Shown: positions 54,340 to 64,000 of the stretch, one piece after another
Layout of the letters: every line of letters starts with the position of its first letter
Numbering within the stretch: position 1 is the stretch's first letter
Source of the DNA: Candidatus Nanopelagicus hibericus
Lineage (GTDB): Bacteria > Actinomycetota > Actinomycetes > Nanopelagicales > Nanopelagicaceae
Assembly: GCF_002288005.1 (NCBI RefSeq)
Contig: NZ_CP016771.1
Span: 868,001-932,000, forward strand
Reading direction: 5' to 3'
DNA length: 64,000 nucleotides
Position numbers and translations under genes: made by a program
The notes under the pieces: generated by a model
Database searches by the model: none
Told to the model about the DNA's origin: nothing
Seen by the model: the letters and a program-made list of their open reading frames with translations, nothing else

Positions 54340-55046
54340 ACTTCAATAGCAAGTGGCAATCTGCTGGGTGCAATAACCTTAACAATCTCACTTAACACCA
54401 AATGAACCATTGGCTCACCTACCCATAGGTGCTTAGCACCTGCCACATCAATCTGCTTTAAGTTTTTAACCTTTGAAAACTTCAGCTTTGCTGCTTCAGG
54501 CTTTAAGTAATCATCTAACTCAGGGATTAGTGCAGTAATCACTCTGCCATCTTTAATCCAAAAATCTAGATCATCCTGCGTGGTAGATAACATCGGTGGG
54601 CTTAGCAGTATTAACTCTTTAATTCTTTTATCTCTTGCATATTGCAATGCCAGCTCAGTACCAAATGACCAGCCGATTACATATAAAACTTTTGTCTTTA
54701 ATTGCTCAAAACAGTAATCAAGAGCTGCTAATACATCTAACTTTTCACCTTTGCCATGGTCATACTCACCATCACTTTTTCCTGCTTCACTAACAGTTCC
54801 TCTGGTGTTAAATCTAATTATTTGAATTCCAGCCATGGCAGGTAATCGATTTGCTGCCTTTTTATATATATGAGAATCCATCATTCCCCCACCTGATGGG
54901 TTGGGATGAAGCATTAAAAGTGAGCCACTTACTTCACCCAGCGGGGTAGAAACCTCACCAACTAAATTAAGCCCATCGCTTGTTTTTATGGTTATTGCGC
55001 TGCGATTAGCGGGCAATACCGTTGAAGGGCGGATTAACTCTGGCAC
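54336..55046 (-). CDS. alpha/beta hydrolase
   Basis: The 236-residue protein has the alpha/beta-hydrolase fold with oxyanion region HPNPSGGG, nucleophile elbow GWSFG and a late His in AGAKHLWVG. Of the short CarO/dienelactone-like hydrolase type; substrate unknown. The start is GTG at 55046. TAAACT lies exactly six bases upstream, so the message is probably leaderless. Its start codon is only 22 bases from the divergent aldehyde dehydrogenase start. Confidence 0.83.
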   Translation of the reverse strand: MPELIRPSTVLPANRSAITIKTSDGLNLVGEVSTPLGEVSGSLLMLHPNPSGGGMMDSHIYKKAANRLPAMAGIQIIRFNTRGTVSEAGKSDGEYDHGKGEKLDVLAALDYCFEQLKTKVLYVIGWSFGTELALQYARDKRIKELILLSPPMLSTTQDDLDFWIKDGRVITALIPELDDYLKPEAAKLKFSKVKNLKQIDVAGAKHLWVGEPMVHLVLSEIVKVIAPSRLPLAIEV

Positions 55047-55062
55047 AAAAAGAGTTTACTCT
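55034..55062. promoter_or_regulatory. overlapping divergent leaderless promoters
   Basis: Plus strand: TTAACT (55034-55039), 17-base spacer, TACTCT (55057-55062), six bases, ATG 55069. Minus strand: TAAACT (55053-55058), six bases, GTG 55046. The two -10 boxes overlap by two bases and the plus-strand -35 lies inside the hydrolase coding sequence, so RNA polymerase cannot serve both at once. Confidence 0.55.
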
Positions 55063-55068
55063 TACCTT

Positions 55069-56532
55069 ATGAACCTTGAGGCCACCTTTGATAAATGTGA
55101 TCCTAAAACTGGTGAGGTAATTGCAAAGTATAAAAACTTTTCACTCGATGAGGTATCTGCCCAAGTAAATCTGGCCCAAACTGCAAGTATTCGCTGGCAA
55201 GAGTTTGGCTTCACCGCTCGAAAGCGCACCTTGCTTAAATGGGCTTCTTACATAACTAAAAATCAAAGTGAGATTGCTGCCTTAGTTGCAACTGAGTGCG
55301 GCAAACCATTAAGTGATGCGTCTTTAGAGGTTTCTATTTCAATTGACAATCTTGCTTGGGCAGCAAAGCATGCAGAAGAGATTATGCAAAAACAAAATCG
55401 CCCAGCTGGTTTATTGATGTTTAACATGAAGGCGCAGGTTCAAAGATCACCCCTTGGTGTGGTTGGCGTAATTGGTCCTTGGAATTATCCAATCTTTACT
55501 CCAATGGGCTCTATTGCTTACGCCTTAGCTGCTGGAAATGCAGTTGTCTTTAAACCATCTGAGTTCACACCCGGTGTGGGAAAGTGGCTGGCAGATTCAT
55601 TTGCTCTCATTGCACCATTTGAAAATATCTTTGCAACGGTAACTGGCTTACCTGATACCGGTAGAGCATTAACTCAATCAAAGATTAATAAGCTCTCATT
55701 TACCGGATCAACTAAAACTGCTAAAAAGGTGGCAGAAAGTTGCGCGCAATCAATGATTCCAGTTGTGCTCGAATGTGGTGGCAAGGATCCAGTAATTGTG
55801 GCAGCAGATGCTGATATAAAACTTGCAGCCGAATACACACTCTGGTCTGCCATGGCTAATGCTGGTCAATCTTGTATTGGGGCAGAAAGAGTTTATGTGG
55901 TCGAATCTGTTGCTGATCAATTTATTGAAGAGATTAGTAAGATGGCAAAAAAGATTGAGGTTGGCAAAGATTACGGCCCAGCCACAATGCCATCACAATT
56001 AAATGTTATTCAATCCCATTTAGATGATGCCAAAGCAAAGGGGGCTAAATTCTTACTTGGGGGCGCTGATTCGGTAAAGGGCGCCTATGTTGAACCGGTA
56101 ATAATGTTGGATGTGCCAGAGGATTCAACTGCGATGACGCAGGAGACCTTTGGGCCAACTATTGCTATTAATAAGGTATCTAATACTGAAGAAGCAATTA
56201 AGTTATCTAATGCCAGCTCCTATGGACTTGCTGCAGCAGTTTTCTCCAAGCGAGATGGTGAAAAGATTGCCTCAAAGCTTGCCTGTGGCATGGTCTCCAT
56301 AAATTCAGTCTTTTTATTTGCAGCTGTTGCATCTGTGCCATTTGGTGGAGTTAAAGATTCTGGATATGGGCGCATTCATGGAGCTGAAGGTTTACTTGAG
56401 TACACCTACGCACGCACAGTAGTTAAAACTAGATTTAGAATTCCACTTAGAGTTACTACCTTCAAGCGCACAAAAGTTTCAGAAAAAATCATAACAACCT
56501 TGATTAAGCGCTTGCATGGAAGAAAGAAGTAG
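55069..56532 (+). CDS. NAD(P)-dependent aldehyde dehydrogenase
   Basis: Oxidises an aldehyde to its acid. The 487 residues include GPWNYP, the NAD-binding SFTGSTKTAKK, catalytic Glu in LECGGKDP and catalytic Cys in AGQSCIGAE. It is close to succinate-semialdehyde and benzaldehyde dehydrogenase-type ALDHs; substrate is not determined. A basic C-terminal tail (about 30 residues, TFKRTKVSEK onward) extends past the usual end and could be a membrane-binding segment. The frame is open to 54988, but ATG 55069 fits homologues and the promoter spacing. Confidence 0.9.
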   Translation: MNLEATFDKCDPKTGEVIAKYKNFSLDEVSAQVNLAQTASIRWQEFGFTARKRTLLKWASYITKNQSEIAALVATECGKPLSDASLEVSISIDNLAWAAKHAEEIMQKQNRPAGLLMFNMKAQVQRSPLGVVGVIGPWNYPIFTPMGSIAYALAAGNAVVFKPSEFTPGVGKWLADSFALIAPFENIFATVTGLPDTGRALTQSKINKLSFTGSTKTAKKVAESCAQSMIPVVLECGGKDPVIVAADADIKLAAEYTLWSAMANAGQSCIGAERVYVVESVADQFIEEISKMAKKIEVGKDYGPATMPSQLNVIQSHLDDAKAKGAKFLLGGADSVKGAYVEPVIMLDVPEDSTAMTQETFGPTIAINKVSNTEEAIKLSNASSYGLAAAVFSKRDGEKIASKLACGMVSINSVFLFAAVASVPFGGVKDSGYGRIHGAEGLLEYTYARTVVKTRFRIPLRVTTFKRTKVSEKIITTLIKRLHGRKK

Positions 56533-56534
56533 TA

Positions 56535-57683
56535 CTACAAACTCTTTGCAATCCGATCAATACCTTCAGTGATTACTTGCGGGCTGGTTCCAAAGTTAAG
56601 TCGGACAAAGCTCTTATGTTTTGGTCCATATAAAACTCCACCATTTAATGCCACTTTTCCTTTTTCTAAAATCTTCGCTGCTGGATCATCCCCTAAACCA
56701 AGGGCGCTCATATCAAGCCAAGCAAGATAGCCAAAATCTGGAATTCGATACTTAACTTGCGGTAATTTGCTTTGCAGTAAATTGCTAAGTAATTTCCTAT
56801 TCTCATCCAATGTGATCAACACTCCATCTAACCAATTAACAGAGTCTGCATAAGCAGCAGTTGATGCTACTGCGCCAAATAAAGATGCCCGCCAAGTTAC
56901 CGCCAGTGGCATTTTATTTATTCGCTCCTGCAGCGCACTTGATTGAGTAATGATAAACGCACACTTAAGCCCAGCTAGGTTAAAGGATTTACTTGCGCTA
57001 GTAATAATAATTCCAACCTCTTTGGCAACATCACTTACAGCTAAGAAGGGTGTAAAAGTTTTTGCGTCATAGGAAAGAGGTGCATGGATCTCATCACTTA
57101 AAATCACCACTTGATAACGCTTTGCCAACTCAGCTAACGCACTTAATTGTTGCTTATCAAAAATAACCCCAACTGGATTATGTGGATGGCACAAAATATG
57201 GACCTTAACACCAGCCTTGTACTCTTTTTCAATCGCTACTAAATCTAATTTGTAATTTAAATCCTCCTCAATAAGAGGGGTATCAACTGTGGTGGCATTA
57301 ACCTCAGTAATCCATCGCCAGATATTTTCATAAACTGGTGAGTTAAGCATTACCTTCTCACCTGGCTTAATTAGGGTGCGCATGATCTCCACAATGCCAA
57401 CGCCAACATCAGTTGCCATGCGCATTTGTTTGGTATCAACCTGCCAACCCCAACGAGATAGTGAGAATTTGGCAAAGGCATCAAATAACTCTGGGAATGG
57501 TCCGAGGTATCCAGTATCTGATCGCTCGACCATATCTAATAAGGCAGCTTTTATTGCCGGGGCTGATTCAAAATCCATCTCAGCAACAGGTAGCGGCAGA
57601 ACATCATTTGGAAATTGTCGCCACTTAACACTTTTACGTTTACGTAATTGATCAAGTGATAACGCTCGGACGACATCGGCCAT
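56535..57683 (-). CDS. PLP-dependent C-S lyase / aminotransferase, MalY-PatB type
   Basis: Fold-type I PLP enzyme of 382 residues. It has VAEMDFESAP at the N-terminus, the CHPHNPVGVIF segment, the PLP lysine in SASKSFNLAG and a C-terminal RLNFGTS (carboxylate Arg). PatB/MalY members cleave cystathionine or other S-conjugates. ATG at 57683 lies 31 bases after the SDR gene; longer in-frame starts fall inside that gene. CATACT seven bases upstream could be an internal promoter. Confidence 0.88.
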   Translation of the reverse strand: MADVVRALSLDQLRKRKSVKWRQFPNDVLPLPVAEMDFESAPAIKAALLDMVERSDTGYLGPFPELFDAFAKFSLSRWGWQVDTKQMRMATDVGVGIVEIMRTLIKPGEKVMLNSPVYENIWRWITEVNATTVDTPLIEEDLNYKLDLVAIEKEYKAGVKVHILCHPHNPVGVIFDKQQLSALAELAKRYQVVILSDEIHAPLSYDAKTFTPFLAVSDVAKEVGIIITSASKSFNLAGLKCAFIITQSSALQERINKMPLAVTWRASLFGAVASTAAYADSVNWLDGVLITLDENRKLLSNLLQSKLPQVKYRIPDFGYLAWLDMSALGLGDDPAAKILEKGKVALNGGVLYGPKHKSFVRLNFGTSPQVITEGIDRIAKSL

Positions 57684-57714
57684 AAGTGCAAGTATGCCAC
57701 TTATTTTAAAAGAA

Positions 57715-58491
57715 TTAGTAGGTTGCTCGCCCGCCTGAAATATCAAAAGTAAAGCCAGTTGTAAATGAACAAGCCTTTGATCCCATAAATGCAATTATCT
57801 CTGCAACTTCACTTGGCTCACCAAGACGGCCGGCTGGAATTTTTGAGATCATATAATCCAAAGTTTCTTTGGCGGTATTCACATTAATTGGCGTTGCAAT
57901 TACGGCTGGAGCAAGTGCATTTATTGTTATTCCATCAACTGCAACCTCTTTAGCAACACCTTTTACAAAACCAATTAAGCCAGCTTTAGCGGTGTTGTAA
58001 GGGGCCATCTTGGGATTGCCCTCTTTACCGGCAATTGATGCCACCTGCACAATCCGGCCATACTTTTGTTTTTTCATAATTGGCAACACTGCTTGAGTTA
58101 ACCAGATAGCACCAAAGAGATTAACCTCGATTACTTTTTGATAATCACTCCAAGTAATCTCCTCAACAAATTTTCCCGTAGGTCCTGGGTAGCCGGCGCA
58201 ATTTACTAATGCATCAATTCTTTTATGTGTACTTCCTAGCGTTGCAATTAAATCCATAACGTTTTTTTGATTGGATATATCTAAAACCACAGCTTCGGCA
58301 GCTCCGCCTGATTTTGTAATCAGATCTACACACTCATCAATACCTGACTGATTTAAATCAATACAGATTACCTTTGCCCCACGGGATGCGATTAATTGGG
58401 CGGCAGATTTACCAATTCCACTACCTGCGCCAGTAACAATTACTACCTGACCTGCGTAGGAGATCTCTTGGAAAGCGCTGTTGTTACTCAT
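57715..58491 (-). CDS. short-chain dehydrogenase/reductase (3-oxoacyl reductase-like)
   Basis: Classical SDR of 258 residues: NAD(P)-binding GAGSGIG near residue 21, catalytic Ser in VASIAG, YNTAK (YxxxK) and a C-terminal glycine-rich ISGG. A polyol, sugar or hydroxyacid substrate is likely. ATG at 58491; a TATAAT -10 box lies nine bases upstream. It is divergent from the U32-like operon and may act in the same pathway. Confidence 0.88.
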   Translation of the reverse strand: MSNNSAFQEISYAGQVVIVTGAGSGIGKSAAQLIASRGAKVICIDLNQSGIDECVDLITKSGGAAEAVVLDISNQKNVMDLIATLGSTHKRIDALVNCAGYPGPTGKFVEEITWSDYQKVIEVNLFGAIWLTQAVLPIMKKQKYGRIVQVASIAGKEGNPKMAPYNTAKAGLIGFVKGVAKEVAVDGITINALAPAVIATPINVNTAKETLDYMISKIPAGRLGEPSEVAEIIAFMGSKACSFTTGFTFDISGGRATY

Positions 58492-58548: not shown

Positions 58549-59475
58549 ATGATGGCATCTTGGCCAAGCACGCGAGATCCCAAGGGCCCAATGAAGCGCT
58601 CCATTGGGATATTGAGCAAACAAAAAATTCAATCACAAGATGCAGATGGATTACCCGAATCTGGCAAGAGATTTGCCGACGGCAGCCGCTACAAAATAGA
58701 GATTCCATCGGTAGAAGGTCCGGCTGCATTTAAAACTGTAATTGACGAAGCAAAAAAACATAAGCTAGTAATACATCGCATCTCCCAAGGCTCTGGCATC
58801 ATGATGCAAACTGATGATGAGATTAAGCAGATGGTCGCGATGGGTAAGAAGGAGAAGATTGAGGTTTGCTTATTTGTTGGGCCAAGGGCTTCCTGGGATA
58901 TTGGAAAGCAGGTAAGTGCTAGTGCTGGCGTGATTGCATCGCCAACTCTTCGCGGTGGTGATCAACTTAGATTTGCATTAGAGGATGTAATAAATGGCGT
59001 AAATCTTGGGCTTCGAAGTGTTTTGGTGGGAGATCTTGGATTATTAAAGGTATTAGGAGATGCAAAGCGCAAGGGTGATCTGCCTAAGGAGTTAATTCTT
59101 AAAACTTCAGTGGCGTTGGTTTGTAATAATCCAGCAACCGCTGCACTCCTAGAAGATCTTGGTGCCTCTACTTTAAATTTAGCCACTGATCTCTCCTTGC
59201 AACAAATTGCTGCCATAAGATCACAGGTTGATCTACCAGTTGATATTTATGTTGAAGGGCCAGATGATTTTGGTGGTGCGGTAAGACATTATGAAACACC
59301 AGATTTGGTAAGAGTGGCTGCTCCGATTTACTTAAAGTTCACACTCAGAAACTCACCGGGTTTATATCCCGCAGGTGCCCACATCCAAGGATTGGTTGAG
59401 TCAACTGCGAAAGAGCGGGTGCGCCGTGCTGCAATTAGCAAGGCGATATTAGATAGGTATGGTTTTAAAAAATAA
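58549..59475 (+). CDS. U32-like TIM-barrel protein of unknown function
   Basis: The 308-residue protein resembles an actinobacterial group often labelled U32 family peptidase: IEIPSVEGP near residue 55, HRISQGSGIM, CLFVGPRASWD, LRGGDQLR and DIYVEGPDDFGG, consistent with a beta/alpha barrel. It lacks any clear protease signature I can point to, and an enzymatic role on a small metabolite is as likely. The start is uncertain: TTG 58537, ATG 58549, ATG 58552 and ATG 58591 (AAGGG upstream) are all in frame. First gene of an operon with SDR, kinase and enolase-like genes. Confidence 0.75.
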   Translation: MMASWPSTRDPKGPMKRSIGILSKQKIQSQDADGLPESGKRFADGSRYKIEIPSVEGPAAFKTVIDEAKKHKLVIHRISQGSGIMMQTDDEIKQMVAMGKKEKIEVCLFVGPRASWDIGKQVSASAGVIASPTLRGGDQLRFALEDVINGVNLGLRSVLVGDLGLLKVLGDAKRKGDLPKELILKTSVALVCNNPATAALLEDLGASTLNLATDLSLQQIAAIRSQVDLPVDIYVEGPDDFGGAVRHYETPDLVRVAAPIYLKFTLRNSPGLYPAGAHIQGLVESTAKERVRRAAISKAILDRYGFKK

Positions 59476-59476
59476 A

Positions 59477-60181
59477 ATGACTAATCCCGCGCCGCTTAAG
59501 CTTTTAATCTTTGGGGGCACAGGAGTATTGGGTCAGGCGATTGCCACAAAGTTTAAATCTCATAATTATGAAGTCACCTACGGTGTTCGAAAAATAAGTA
59601 ATCCTAAGGATCAGTTCCAACTGCCAATTGCTGACTCTTCATTTCCAGAGCTACTAAAAGGTCAATTATTTGACACAGTAATTTTTGCCCAGGGAGCCAA
59701 CATCAATGATTCAGTGATTAATAATTCCTTAGATGACCTAAACAAACTGTTTGAAGCAAATGTTAGTTTTATTACCGAAACTACTAAAGCGCTTATTTCT
59801 CGCAACTTGATTAAGAGCAAAGGGAAAATGGTGGTCTTGAGCTCCTTTTGGGAGCAAGTAACGAGGCAAGAAAAGATGTCCTACACAATCACCAAGGCTG
59901 CAGTTGGTGGCTTGGTTAGATCGATGGCGGTTGATTTAGGTAATGCCAAAGGAATTTTAGTTAATGGATTGCTGCCTGGAGTAGTTGATTCACCAATGGC
60001 ACGGGGATTACTAAAGCCAGAACAGATTGAAAATGTTGAGTGGCAAACTCCCGGACATAAAATGGTGGTACCAAGTGATGTGGCAAATGCTGCTTACCTG
60101 CTTGGCTGTGAAGACAACACTGCAATCTCTGGACAATCTTTATTTGTTGATTACGGCTTTGCCATCGCCCGGGTTCTTTAG
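59477..60181 (+). CDS. short-chain dehydrogenase/reductase
   Basis: SDR of 234 residues with the N-terminal GGTGVLG, catalytic Ser in VLSSFW and YTITK (YxxxK), then a C-terminal NGLLPGVVDSPMARG. It is shorter than the SDR at 57715 and not a close copy. ATG 59477 lies one base after the upstream stop codon; an earlier in-frame ATG (59459) overlaps the U32-like gene. Probable role: oxidation or reduction of the intermediate handled by the operon. Confidence 0.85.
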   Translation: MTNPAPLKLLIFGGTGVLGQAIATKFKSHNYEVTYGVRKISNPKDQFQLPIADSSFPELLKGQLFDTVIFAQGANINDSVINNSLDDLNKLFEANVSFITETTKALISRNLIKSKGKMVVLSSFWEQVTRQEKMSYTITKAAVGGLVRSMAVDLGNAKGILVNGLLPGVVDSPMARGLLKPEQIENVEWQTPGHKMVVPSDVANAAYLLGCEDNTAISGQSLFVDYGFAIARVL

Positions 60182-60190
60182 GCGCTATTT

Positions 60191-61180
60191 GTGAGTGTAG
60201 AACTTCTTAATAAGGATACTGTTGTTCAATATCTGACTGACAAAAATATTATCTCTGCCACTGATAAGGCTGAGGTTGAGGTATTAACTGGCGGTGTATC
60301 AAATGTAGTTCTGGCTATTACAACTGCAGATCAAAAACTGGTTTTAAAGCAGGCATTAGCCGAGCTTGCAGTGAGTGAAAAATGGCTAGCTGATCAACGC
60401 CGTGCAATTGTGGAAGCAGATGCTATTAAATTGTTTAACCAATTAAGCCCAGCTCAAGTGCCAAAGTTGATATTCCTAGATCCAGAGCGTTTTATTCTTG
60501 TGCTAGAACGTGTACCAGTAGGTAGTACGGTTTGGAAATCTGATTTACTTGCTGGAATTATTAATCCAGATGTGGGTGCTGGTTTAGGAAAGACGCTTGC
60601 CACATGGCATAACTATGGCGAAGTTACCGCTTCAGCCAGGATTAAATTTATGGAAGATACTCTGTTTGAACAACTGCGCATTGATCCCTTCTACCGTTTT
60701 GTAGCTGCCAAAAGTCCACAAATTGAGGTTCCAATTAGAAAACTTATTAATGAATTAGAGGGTGATAAAACCACAATTGTGCACGGAGATTTCTCCCCGA
60801 AAAACATTATGGTTTCTATGGATGATCAGATTTACATTTTAGATTTTGAAGTCACTCACGTCGGAAATCCGGTCTTTGACCTGGCTTTTTTAATCGCACA
60901 TTTGCTCTGTAAATTCTTTCGAACCGAAGATCGCCTGCAGGCTAAGCTTTTAAGTAATACTGCAAATACCTTTACCGCAGAGTATGCCCAACTAAGGTCG
61001 ATCTCACCCACGGTGGCAAAGCACGCCGCCCTAATTGCACTTGCCAGAGTTGAAGGTAAATCACCAGTAAATTACCTAAACCAAGTACAACAGAAGAAAA
61101 TACAAAGCTTTACCAAAGCAGTTTTAGCGGATAATGCTAAATTACCTGTTGCAAATCTATTTGAGATGAGCGCTAAGTGA
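60191..61180 (+). CDS. APH/choline-kinase-fold small-molecule kinase
   Basis: The 329-residue protein has GGVSNVVLAI (nucleotide loop), VLKQ (Lys), the catalytic loop VHGDFSPKNIMV and the metal site ILDFEVTHVGNP. The family includes methylthioribose kinase (MtnK), homoserine and aminoglycoside kinases; no mtn genes are near, so the name MtnK is not used. The start is GTG 60191. It overlaps the enolase-like gene by four bases (GTGA), which suggests the two products act consecutively. Confidence 0.82.
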   Translation: MSVELLNKDTVVQYLTDKNIISATDKAEVEVLTGGVSNVVLAITTADQKLVLKQALAELAVSEKWLADQRRAIVEADAIKLFNQLSPAQVPKLIFLDPERFILVLERVPVGSTVWKSDLLAGIINPDVGAGLGKTLATWHNYGEVTASARIKFMEDTLFEQLRIDPFYRFVAAKSPQIEVPIRKLINELEGDKTTIVHGDFSPKNIMVSMDDQIYILDFEVTHVGNPVFDLAFLIAHLLCKFFRTEDRLQAKLLSNTANTFTAEYAQLRSISPTVAKHAALIALARVEGKSPVNYLNQVQQKKIQSFTKAVLADNAKLPVANLFEMSAK

Positions 61181-62448
61181 AAATTACCAAGGTATTTGGT
61201 TATCAGGTTTTAGATTCCAGAGGCAGGCCAACAGTTGCAGCATCGATATCACTCACTGATGGCTCAACTCATACCGCCAGGGTTCCTTCAGGTGCTTCAA
61301 CCGGTTCTCATGAAGCTAAAGAGTTGCGTGATACTGGCAGCAAGCATGCCGAAAAGTTTTTTGCAGGTGCATCTGTCCAATTAGCCGTCGCCAATATCAA
61401 TGAGAAGATTGCGCCGCTACTGATTGAAGATCAGATAAGTTTAAGTTCAGTCGATAACAAGTTGAGCGAGTTAGATCCAAGTATTGATCACGCTCAGTTA
61501 GGTGCCAACGCCACGCTAGCGGTTTCTCTAGCTGCTGCTTTAGCTGATGCTCATGGGCAGAACAAATCACTGGCGCGATATTTCACCGCCGAAAAACAAC
61601 TACTGATTCCAATGCCGATGGTTAATATTTTATCTGGCGGTGCACATGCAAATCGCACCATGGATATTCAAGATATTTTAATAATTCCAGTGGGCGCCAA
61701 ATCATTCACTCAAGCTCTCTCTTGGATCGTGGCCATCCGTGAAATGGCAGCTAAGTTGGGCAAAGAGTCAGGAGCGGTGACAAATCTGATTGCAGATGAA
61801 GGCGGGCTAGCAATTGCATTTGATTCCGTTGAAAAGGCTTGTGAATTTGTCACAAAATCAATTGAAAAAGTGGGACTGAAGGTGGGCACTGAAGTTGCAC
61901 TTGCGCTAGATGTAGCTGCCACACAATTTTTTGATGGAAATAAATACAATTTTGCAACTACTAACAAGAGTTACACATCTGCCGAGTTTGTTAAATACAT
62001 CGGTGATCTAACATCTAACCAGCCAATTATTTCAATTGAAGACCCATTTGCAGAGGATGATTGGCAAAGTTGGCAGAATTTTTCTGAAATTGCTCCTAAG
62101 AAACTGCAGGTTATGGGTGATGATTTACTCACAACAAATCTAGATCGCTTAAATCAAGCAATTGCCAGTAAGAGTGCAAATGCAATATTGATTAAAGCAA
62201 ATCAAAATGGTTTAGTCACCTCAACTCTTAATGTGTTAAAACAGGCTCGAGCAAACAATTTCAATACTGTCGTTTCGGCTAGATCTGGTGAAAATGAGGA
62301 TTCTTGGCTAGCAGATTTAGCTGTTGGCTGGAGTGCTGGTCAGATTAAGGTGGGGTCAACTCATGGCTCTGAAAGGAATGCAAAGTGGAATAGGTTGCTT
62401 GAGCTTGAGGCAACAGAGGAGTGTAGGTTCTTAAATCCTTTTAATTAA
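61177..62448 (+). CDS. divergent enolase-superfamily protein with altered active site
   Basis: The 423-residue protein is a full-length enolase homologue: DSRGRPTV, SGASTG loop, LGANA, GGAHAN, ADEGG, metal ligands in LALDVAATQF, SIEDP and GDD, catalytic Lys in ILIK and GQIK. Compared with E. coli Eno, the Glu of DIQE is Asp here (residue 166, E168 in E. coli) and the His of SHRSGETED is Ala (residue 368, H370 in E. coli). The substrate loop RSGE is kept. It is therefore unlikely to be the glycolytic enolase and may dehydrate another phosphorylated acid made by the adjacent kinase. Confidence 0.82.
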   Translation: MKITKVFGYQVLDSRGRPTVAASISLTDGSTHTARVPSGASTGSHEAKELRDTGSKHAEKFFAGASVQLAVANINEKIAPLLIEDQISLSSVDNKLSELDPSIDHAQLGANATLAVSLAAALADAHGQNKSLARYFTAEKQLLIPMPMVNILSGGAHANRTMDIQDILIIPVGAKSFTQALSWIVAIREMAAKLGKESGAVTNLIADEGGLAIAFDSVEKACEFVTKSIEKVGLKVGTEVALALDVAATQFFDGNKYNFATTNKSYTSAEFVKYIGDLTSNQPIISIEDPFAEDDWQSWQNFSEIAPKKLQVMGDDLLTTNLDRLNQAIASKSANAILIKANQNGLVTSTLNVLKQARANNFNTVVSARSGENEDSWLADLAVGWSAGQIKVGSTHGSERNAKWNRLLELEATEECRFLNPFN

Positions 62449-64000
62449 TGTGAGTGGCGCGGAACGTAATCGCCACTGCCACCAACTAAGAAATCAAGAT
62501 CAGCCCCAAGATGTGCTTGTTGCACATGCTCGATATACATCTTGCTCCAACCACGGTCTGCTTTAGGTTTTGGTGCTACCCAAGCTGCTTTACGTTTTGC
62601 TAACTCCTCAGATGAAATAAGTAAATTTAATTTACGATTTGGCACATCAAGTTCAATCTCATCACCATTTTGCACAAACGCAAGTGGTCCACCAGCAGTT
62701 GACTCTGGCGAGACATGCAAGACCACCGTGCCATATGCGGTTCCACTCATTCTGGCATCTGAAATTCTCACCATATCGGTAACACCTTGATCTAACATTT
62801 TCTTTGGCATCGGTAGATTTCCGACCTCTGGAAATCCGGGATAACCCTTTGGGCCAGAGTTTTTTAGAACCAAAATAGTATCGGCGGTAACTGGCAAATT
62901 TGGATCATCAGCAACTTTTAAGTACTCCTCAATCTCATTAAATACAAGTGCTTTTCCTTTGTGTGTTAATAACTTTGGTGTCGCAGCTGATACTTTAATA
63001 ATCGCGCCATCTGGAGCGAGTGAGCCTTTAACCACCACGATTCCACCACCAGCTGCTTGAAATGGCTTACTTACTGGGGTAATCACCTCTTTATTCCAAT
63101 TTTCAGCTCCTTCGATATTTTCCTTCACAGTGTTACCAGTTACGGTGATGTGGTCGGTGTGAATTAAGTTTGCGATCTCCTTCATGACAGTTGGCACACC
63201 ACCTGCATCGAAAAACTCTTCCATCAGATATTTACCACTTGGCATCATATTTGCAATGACGGGAACATCTTTACCCAATTTATCAAAATCATCTAGATTC
63301 AATGGCACGCCCACTCGACCAGCAATTGCTAATAAGTGAACCACTGCATTGGTTGAGCCACCGATAGCAGCTAATATCTTGATAGCATTTTCAAATGCTT
63401 TGCGATTTAATATTTTTGAAAGCCGCAAATCCTCTTCCACCATCTTCACAATTCGACGACCAGATAAGGTTGCTAAGGTAAATTTGCGTGAATCAACCGC
63501 TGGAATTGCAGCCGCTCCTGGTAGTTGCACACCAAGTGCTTCAGTAACACATGCCATAGTTGAAGCAGTTCCCATTGTCATGCATGAACCTTGGCTACGT
63601 GCAGAGCAAGACTCCATCGCCATAAACTCTTCAAAACTGATCTTGCCGCTTCTGACCTGCTCGCTATATTTCCAAACTAAAGTTCCTGAGCCAACTGGTT
63701 GACCTTGATATCTACCATTGAGCATCGGTCCACCAGTGATCATCAGTGTTGGTAGATCAACACTTGCTGCTCCCATTAATAATCCAGGTGGTGTCTTGTC
63801 GCAATTGCCAAGTAATACAACACCATCTAATGGATGGGATCTAATTAACTCTTCAACCTCCATCGCCAACATATTGCGATATAACATTGTGGTTGGTCGC
63901 TGTAAGGATTCACTAAGTGACATCGCTGGAAATTCAAGTGGAAAACCACCTGCCTCCCATACTCCACGCTTTACTGCTTCTGCCACATCATCTAAGGATC
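62445..64000 (-). CDS. sugar-acid dehydratase, IlvD/Edd family (N-terminus beyond window)
   Basis: About 518 residues of an estimated 570 are visible; the frame is open to the edge. It has the Fe-S cysteines in GNCDKTPPG and MESCSARSQGSCM, GGSTNAVVHLL and the C-terminal VPRHSH, which is typical of the sugar-acid branch (arabonate, xylonate or similar) rather than valine-pathway IlvD. The product would be a 2-keto-3-deoxy acid. The stop codon is shared with the convergent enolase-like gene in TTAA (62445-62448). Confidence 0.88.
   Translation of the reverse strand, partial: SLDDVAEAVKRGVWEAGGFPLEFPAMSLSESLQRPTTMLYRNMLAMEVEELIRSHPLDGVVLLGNCDKTPPGLLMGAASVDLPTLMITGGPMLNGRYQGQPVGSGTLVWKYSEQVRSGKISFEEFMAMESCSARSQGSCMTMGTASTMACVTEALGVQLPGAAAIPAVDSRKFTLATLSGRRIVKMVEEDLRLSKILNRKAFENAIKILAAIGGSTNAVVHLLAIAGRVGVPLNLDDFDKLGKDVPVIANMMPSGKYLMEEFFDAGGVPTVMKEIANLIHTDHITVTGNTVKENIEGAENWNKEVITPVSKPFQAAGGGIVVVKGSLAPDGAIIKVSAATPKLLTHKGKALVFNEIEEYLKVADDPNLPVTADTILVLKNSGPKGYPGFPEVGNLPMPKKMLDQGVTDMVRISDARMSGTAYGTVVLHVSPESTAGGPLAFVQNGDEIELDVPNRKLNLLISSEELAKRKAAWVAPKPKADRGWSKMYIEHVQQAHLGADLDFLVGGSGDYVPRHSH

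Follow-up and report, generated by a model that had tools for sequence, protein, structure and literature searches.

A conserved gene pair of kinase and altered enolase in a sugar-acid catabolic neighbourhood of Candidatus Nanopelagicus hibericus

Introduction

In the genome of Candidatus Nanopelagicus hibericus, the gene for a small-molecule kinase (KIN) overlaps that for a paralogue of enolase (ENOL), which raises the question of what the kinase phosphorylates and what the second enzyme makes of the product. The pair forms the end of a four-gene operon in the window, the 64,000-nucleotide stretch analysed here (bases 868001-932000 of a closed genome of 1,223,088 bases, 99.9% complete). A previous inspection of this DNA, referred to below as the sequence-only reading, had described four tandem genes with spacings of 1, 9 and -4 bases, and the coordinates match the list of open reading frames (ORFs): U32L and SDR1 are separated by one base and SDR1 and KIN by nine, whilst KIN and ENOL overlap by four.

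58549/58552..59475, + strand: U32L, a U32-like TIM barrel (PF01136, partial, 33 bits; AlphaFold2 model)
59477..60181, + strand: SDR1, a short-chain dehydrogenase/reductase (SDR; PF13561, 93 bits)
60191..61180, + strand: KIN, a small-molecule kinase of the APH fold (PF01636, 61 bits; AlphaFold2 fold match to 5-methylthioribose (MTR) kinase)
61177..62448, + strand: ENOL, an enolase paralogue (TIGR01060, 414.6 bits; changes E168D, at D166, and H373A, at A368)

Comparison with related genomes shows that these genes form two modules within a single operon, in a neighbourhood of sugar-acid catabolism. One is KIN-ENOL, a conserved pair in which the enolase is uniformly altered; the other half, U32L, joins a type of catabolism that is already known. 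No described pathway containing the KIN-ENOL pair was found in the literature searched. To our knowledge, the enolase subgroup serves almost exclusively as glycolytic enolase, the exception being a phosphonate-antibiotic enzyme; if the function proposed below is true, the altered group, tied to one kinase in sugar-acid operons of freshwater bacteria, would extend the subgroup to catabolism and supply a new sugar-acid step.

Two separable modules

The order of kinase then enolase, which had been noted in the window, recurs as adjacent genes in 54 loci, 47 of which have the identical 4-base overlap (counts of loci include a few contigs fetched twice). U32L precedes SDR1 in 47 loci, with gaps mostly between -17 and +8, and SDR1 precedes KIN in 42, with gaps of 2-21. 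When the four-gene neighbourhood was sought in relatives, as the sequence-only reading had suggested, the full order was found to be kept on about 30 distinct contigs longer than 8 kb. However, the proposal that the four genes constitute a single pathway was rejected: U32L, present in 55 of the 297 genomes of the class, is found in many actinobacteria without KIN-ENOL, and KIN-ENOL is found without U32L. Because each half occurs alone, the operon is best described as two modules rather than one pathway unit.

Where U32L is missing, KIN-ENOL is found behind a dehydratase of the mandelate-racemase (MR) type with kinship to L-talarate/galactarate dehydratase (loci L182, L185-L187, L189, L191 and L192) or at the end of an operon encoding L-arabinose isomerase (AraA) and an ABC transporter (L178-L181). 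One MR-type dehydratase, MR367, accompanies the pair in six loci. The genomes with AraA operons also have FGGY kinases, one of which, at about 564 aa, is of the size expected for a ribulokinase, and the idea that KIN acts as the L-ribulokinase of these operons was therefore set aside. In L132 (8527-12978), KIN-ENOL is followed by genes for a CaiB-type CoA-transferase, an enoyl-CoA hydratase and, assigned by eye, a GH105/GH88-like protein and a metallo-beta-lactamase-fold protein; a CoA-transferase similar to that of L132 lies near U32L in L061 and L088. The pair also occurs in two genomes of a distant actinobacterial family (f52), in one with an MR dehydratase, an SDR, a Zn-dehydrogenase and SMP-30 (L194), and in the other with an SDR (L193).

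An enolase changed at two active-site positions

ENOL exceeds the cut-off of TIGR01060 (300 bits), matching over its full length, and shares 44% identity with the canonical enolase of its own genome (L082). It shares with phosphopyruvate hydratase both domains, the metal ligands, Lys345, Lys396, the phosphate-binding residues, His159 and Glu211 (yeast numbering is used for enolase residues), but differs from it in two substitutions, in its translational link to a kinase and in coexisting with a canonical enolase, which was also encoded in all eight altered-enolase genomes checked. Residues were compared between 14 diverse altered copies and 12 canonical enolases, comprising that of the same genome and 11 others. 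Both E168D and H373A are present in every altered copy (14/14) and in no canonical sequence (0/12), the latter all having Glu and His; the homologue is thus altered, as the sequence-only reading had held. Retained in the altered copies are S39, H159, Q167, E211, D246, E295, D320, K345, R374, S375 and K396, and the metal ligands D246/E295/D320, together with K345, K396, S39/R374/S375, H159 and E211, are invariant across the 14 altered and 12 canonical sequences. Work on yeast enolase assigns to E168 and H373, together with E211, the holding of the C3 hydroxyl or water; as these positions contact that group, the change in ENOL lies on the leaving-group side and not on the phosphate side. A literature search on E168 and H373 of enolase found nothing direct.

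In a tree of enolases, the canonical sequences cluster with a support of 1.0, separate from the altered copies. A single origin of the altered enolases is likely but not proven, since midpoint rooting assigns the altered copies from f52 to the canonical side. The signature SARSGExED was present in 53 of the 201 genomes of the family, and matched seven genomes besides that of the window in a sample of the phylum (397 actinobacterial genomes), namely G172, G336, G350, G379, G509, G537 and G663. Confirmation of these out-of-family matches covered G336, G350, G509 and G663: an altered enolase next to KIN was confirmed only in G336 and G350, and no ORF carrying the signature was found at the matches in G509 and G663. 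Two genomes (G010 and G691) have two altered-enolase signatures each, on different contigs.

The kinase partner

The AlphaFold2 model of KIN (pLDDT 93) has MTR kinase as its first-ranked Foldseek match (TMq 0.81-0.86, about 18% identity). The model for the same enzyme, TIGR01767, is also the best match in NCBIfam, at 75.4 bits, which is still below its cut-off of 275. KIN therefore has the APH-type fold and active-site motif in common with MTR kinase (MtnK), its best structural match, but is set apart from it by the sub-cut-off score, the low identity and the nature of its partners, which are sugar-acid genes and ENOL. The motifs HGDxSPKN and D-x-E are invariant across the copies of KIN. In two loci (L089:12997-16378 and L090:1997-5375), genes judged by eye to be GlcD- and GlcF-like precede a remoter homologue of KIN (37%), which lies beside a sugar ABC transporter and has no adjacent altered enolase. 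In L079, two consecutive KIN pieces lie ahead of ENOL, reflecting either a duplication or a frameshift.

Proposed function of the pair

The substrate of an enolase must carry a carboxylate and, on the hydroxyl beside it, a phosphate. As the residues binding both are kept in ENOL, KIN most likely yields a 2-phospho-acid that ENOL converts to an enol phosphate, the order of reactions that the sequence-only reading had proposed; as all copies compared differ at E168 and H373, and a normal enolase is encoded besides, the substrate is most likely something other than D-2-phosphoglycerate. In a 2-hydroxy acid, KIN would phosphorylate the hydroxyl adjoining the carboxylate; ENOL would then carry out an elimination to give phosphoenolpyruvate or a homologue of it, using the kept metal and phosphate ligands and the proton-abstracting lysine. 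The substrate would be either L-glycerate, formed from an L-sugar acid, or a 2,3-dihydroxy acid with a longer chain. We regard this reading as the best supported and put its probability at roughly one half; in its favour are the adjacency of the two genes in so many loci, the recurrence of the pair beside other sugar genes, and the FAH-family hydrolase and aldehyde dehydrogenase described below. More tentatively, the enolase subgroup may have a catabolic branch that, with an MTR-kinase-like partner, uses a phosphorylated intermediate of sugar-acid breakdown to make phosphoenolpyruvate or an enol phosphate with a longer chain, providing an ATP-conserving exit from non-phosphorylative pathways; candidate intermediates are L-2-phosphoglycerate, an aldonate 2-phosphate and a 2-keto-3-deoxy acid bearing a phosphate at C2.

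Three observations weigh against the conversion of a 2-hydroxy acid in this manner. The closest fold to that of KIN acts on an anomeric sugar hydroxyl, not on a hydroxy acid; no sugar-acid dehydratase was seen near the AraA operons or in L188; and the operon contains no apparent enzyme for consuming an unusual enol phosphate.

The best surviving alternative, albeit an unlikely one, is that the pair processes ordinary glycerate, in which case KIN would represent a new family of glycerate 2-kinases and ENOL would be a co-regulated isozyme forming phosphoenolpyruvate from D-2-phosphoglycerate. The glycerate would come from hydrolysis of 2,4-diketo-3-deoxyhexonates or oxidation of glyceraldehyde. 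Neither a PF02595 nor a MOFRL glycerate kinase was found in the host genome by family search, and PF02595 and the altered enolase co-occur in six of the 201 family genomes, against 12.4 expected (Fisher p 0.015, ignoring relatedness); hence a glycerate-like substrate is favoured, which also speaks for the preferred reading. Recurrence of KIN-ENOL in different sugar operons is also as expected of enzymes handling a common end product, and the score of ENOL against TIGR01060 is that of an enolase above the cut-off. In the tail of the non-phosphorylative Entner-Doudoroff pathway (glycerate 2-kinase and enolase), a kinase likewise precedes an enolase once the sugar acid has been dehydrated and cleaved; however, KIN matches neither PF02595 nor MOFRL and its fold is unlike both, and ENOL is an altered paralogue. 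Given the canonical enolase in each genome checked, there would be no point in a second one whose active site is invariantly changed at two positions. Furthermore, a glycerate kinase gene lies directly behind KIN-ENOL in G727, and one matching TIGR00045 is found immediately after MR dehydratase, KIN and ENOL in L182 (8236-9384), which argues that KIN is not a D-glycerate kinase there. The normal enolase wherever checked and the glycerate kinase of G727 therefore disfavour plain D-glycerate as the substrate.

A further alternative starts from the kinase. MTR kinase phosphorylates the anomeric hydroxyl of a furanose sugar, and KIN, for which it is the nearest fold, might do likewise with a 2-keto-3-deoxy sugar acid in its ring (hemiketal) form, acting on the anomeric hydroxyl at C2, with ENOL opening or cleaving the product to an enol phosphate and so conserving the energy of ATP in a phosphoenolpyruvate-type compound. 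The partners of the pair are mostly dehydratases producing a 2-keto-3-deoxy acid, and a carbon bearing both carboxylate and phosphate would fit the binding residues that ENOL retains, leaving the altered residues on the C3 side. However, C2 would have no proton for Lys345 to take, such that the chemistry must change even though this lysine is invariant, and we know of no enzyme of the enolase subgroup that opens or cleaves a C2-phosphorylated 2-keto-3-deoxy acid; we consider this route improbable. That ENOL is a non-enzymatic or regulatory paralogue, with KIN acting alone, would fit the change in all copies compared of two residues important in normal enolase, but is very improbable given that even distant copies keep every other catalytic, metal and phosphate residue unchanged and that ENOL stays coupled to KIN in two families of actinobacteria.

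The sugar-acid catabolic setting

The neighbours of the operon lie at the positions given by the sequence-only reading, an IlvD/Edd dehydratase being opposite and an aldehyde dehydrogenase (ALDH) and a second SDR nearby.

62445..64000, - strand: IlvD/Edd-family sugar-acid dehydratase, tail to tail with ENOL (PRK06131, 805 bits); runs beyond the window
57715..58491, - strand: SDR2, a divergent short-chain dehydrogenase (PF13561, 187 bits)
54988..56532, + strand: ALDH of an SSADH-like type (PF00171, 428 bits; PRK09407, 375 bits, below the cut-off of 521)

The full-length IlvD/Edd protein is 577 aa long; the copy cut by the window scores 789 bits against the L-arabinonate dehydratase model NF009559, the cut-off of which is 882. 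As a neighbour of the operon, the ALDH in the window is conserved within the genus. Just beyond the window lie genes for a protein of the FAH family and for an ALDH of 508 aa. The best solved relative of the former is L-2,4-diketo-3-deoxyrhamnonate hydrolase (E 1.5e-56), and it has a His and a Glu three residues apart (NYAKHAIES) that match His83 and Glu86 of C785_RS20550, a pair that marks members of the FAH family as hydrolases and not dehydratases (PMC6336799). It does not reach the equivalog cut-off of NF053535, scoring 266 bits against the required 500. Amongst the longer KIN-ENOL loci (n=47), FAH genes were present in 24 and IlvD genes in 26.

The FAH-type diketo-acid hydrolase and aldehyde dehydrogenase past the window therefore place the operon in non-phosphorylative sugar-acid (aldonate) catabolism of the Route III/Weimberg type, which is already known. 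In catabolism of this kind, the 2-keto-3-deoxy acid formed by a dehydratase next undergoes cleavage or dehydration. An aldonate dehydratase, SDRs, an FAH hydrolase with the His/Glu pair and an aldehyde dehydrogenase are common to this locus and to pathways such as that of Herbaspirillum huttiense (PMC6336799), and their SMP-30 lactonase and ABC transporter are matched in relatives of the locus; the U32-like barrel and KIN-ENOL are extra here, not being seen among the enzymes of those routes. The claim that no named pathway has this gene set hence survives in part: the KIN-ENOL pair matches none found in the literature searched, but the setting of IlvD/Edd, FAH, aldehyde dehydrogenase and lactonase is of a known type. 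Literature searches on the gene set, on U32 proteins in Weimberg-type pathways, on other enolase homologues and on an L-glycerate enolase found nothing direct.

The U32-like barrel and the dehydrogenases

The start of U32L in relatives is equivalent to the ATG at 58552 (M-x-x-WPSTRD), giving a protein of 307 aa. Its match to PF01136 is above the cut-off of 22.4 bits, yet covers just 78 of the 233 model positions (profile 15-92). The AlphaFold2 model is a TIM barrel (pLDDT 83), the best PDB matches of which are class II aldolases, with the U32 protein Mk0906 at rank 7; as the TM-scores are near 0.5, the likeness is at the level of the fold only. Hence U32L has the barrel, the partial profile match and the fold match to Mk0906 in common with peptidase U32, but the Fe-S members of that family have conserved cysteines, whereas no Cys was found in the invariant columns of the alignment of U32L homologues; furthermore, U32L adjoins sugar-acid genes and class II aldolases outrank Mk0906. 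A role as a peptidase had no support and was dropped.

Outside KIN-ENOL loci, the neighbours of U32L in the loci inspected are IlvD/Edd or MR dehydratases, with a variable further complement of SMP-30 lactonase, Zn-dehydrogenase, aldehyde dehydrogenase, GH43, arabinofuranosidase, IclR regulators and sugar ABC transporters. U32L is plausibly the enzyme of a 2-keto-3-deoxy-acid step, as either a dehydratase or an aldolase, and provides a testable candidate for a step that has no assigned enzyme in actinobacterial arabinose/xylose-type oxidative loci. Loci of this type with dehydratase, lactonase, dehydrogenase or arabinosidase genes contain U32L homologues in actinobacteria outside the family or distant within it (L122, L126, L130, L131, L132 and L137).

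SDR1 comes after U32L in nearly all four-gene loci of the Nanopelagicaceae and reached no NCBIfam equivalog cut-off. SDR2 is a conserved divergent neighbour of U32L and a candidate sugar or 2-keto-3-deoxy-acid dehydrogenase. An ORF for a PatB-like C-S lyase (56535-57794, - strand) overlaps SDR2 by 80 bases in its listed form, and its real start is probably more internal.

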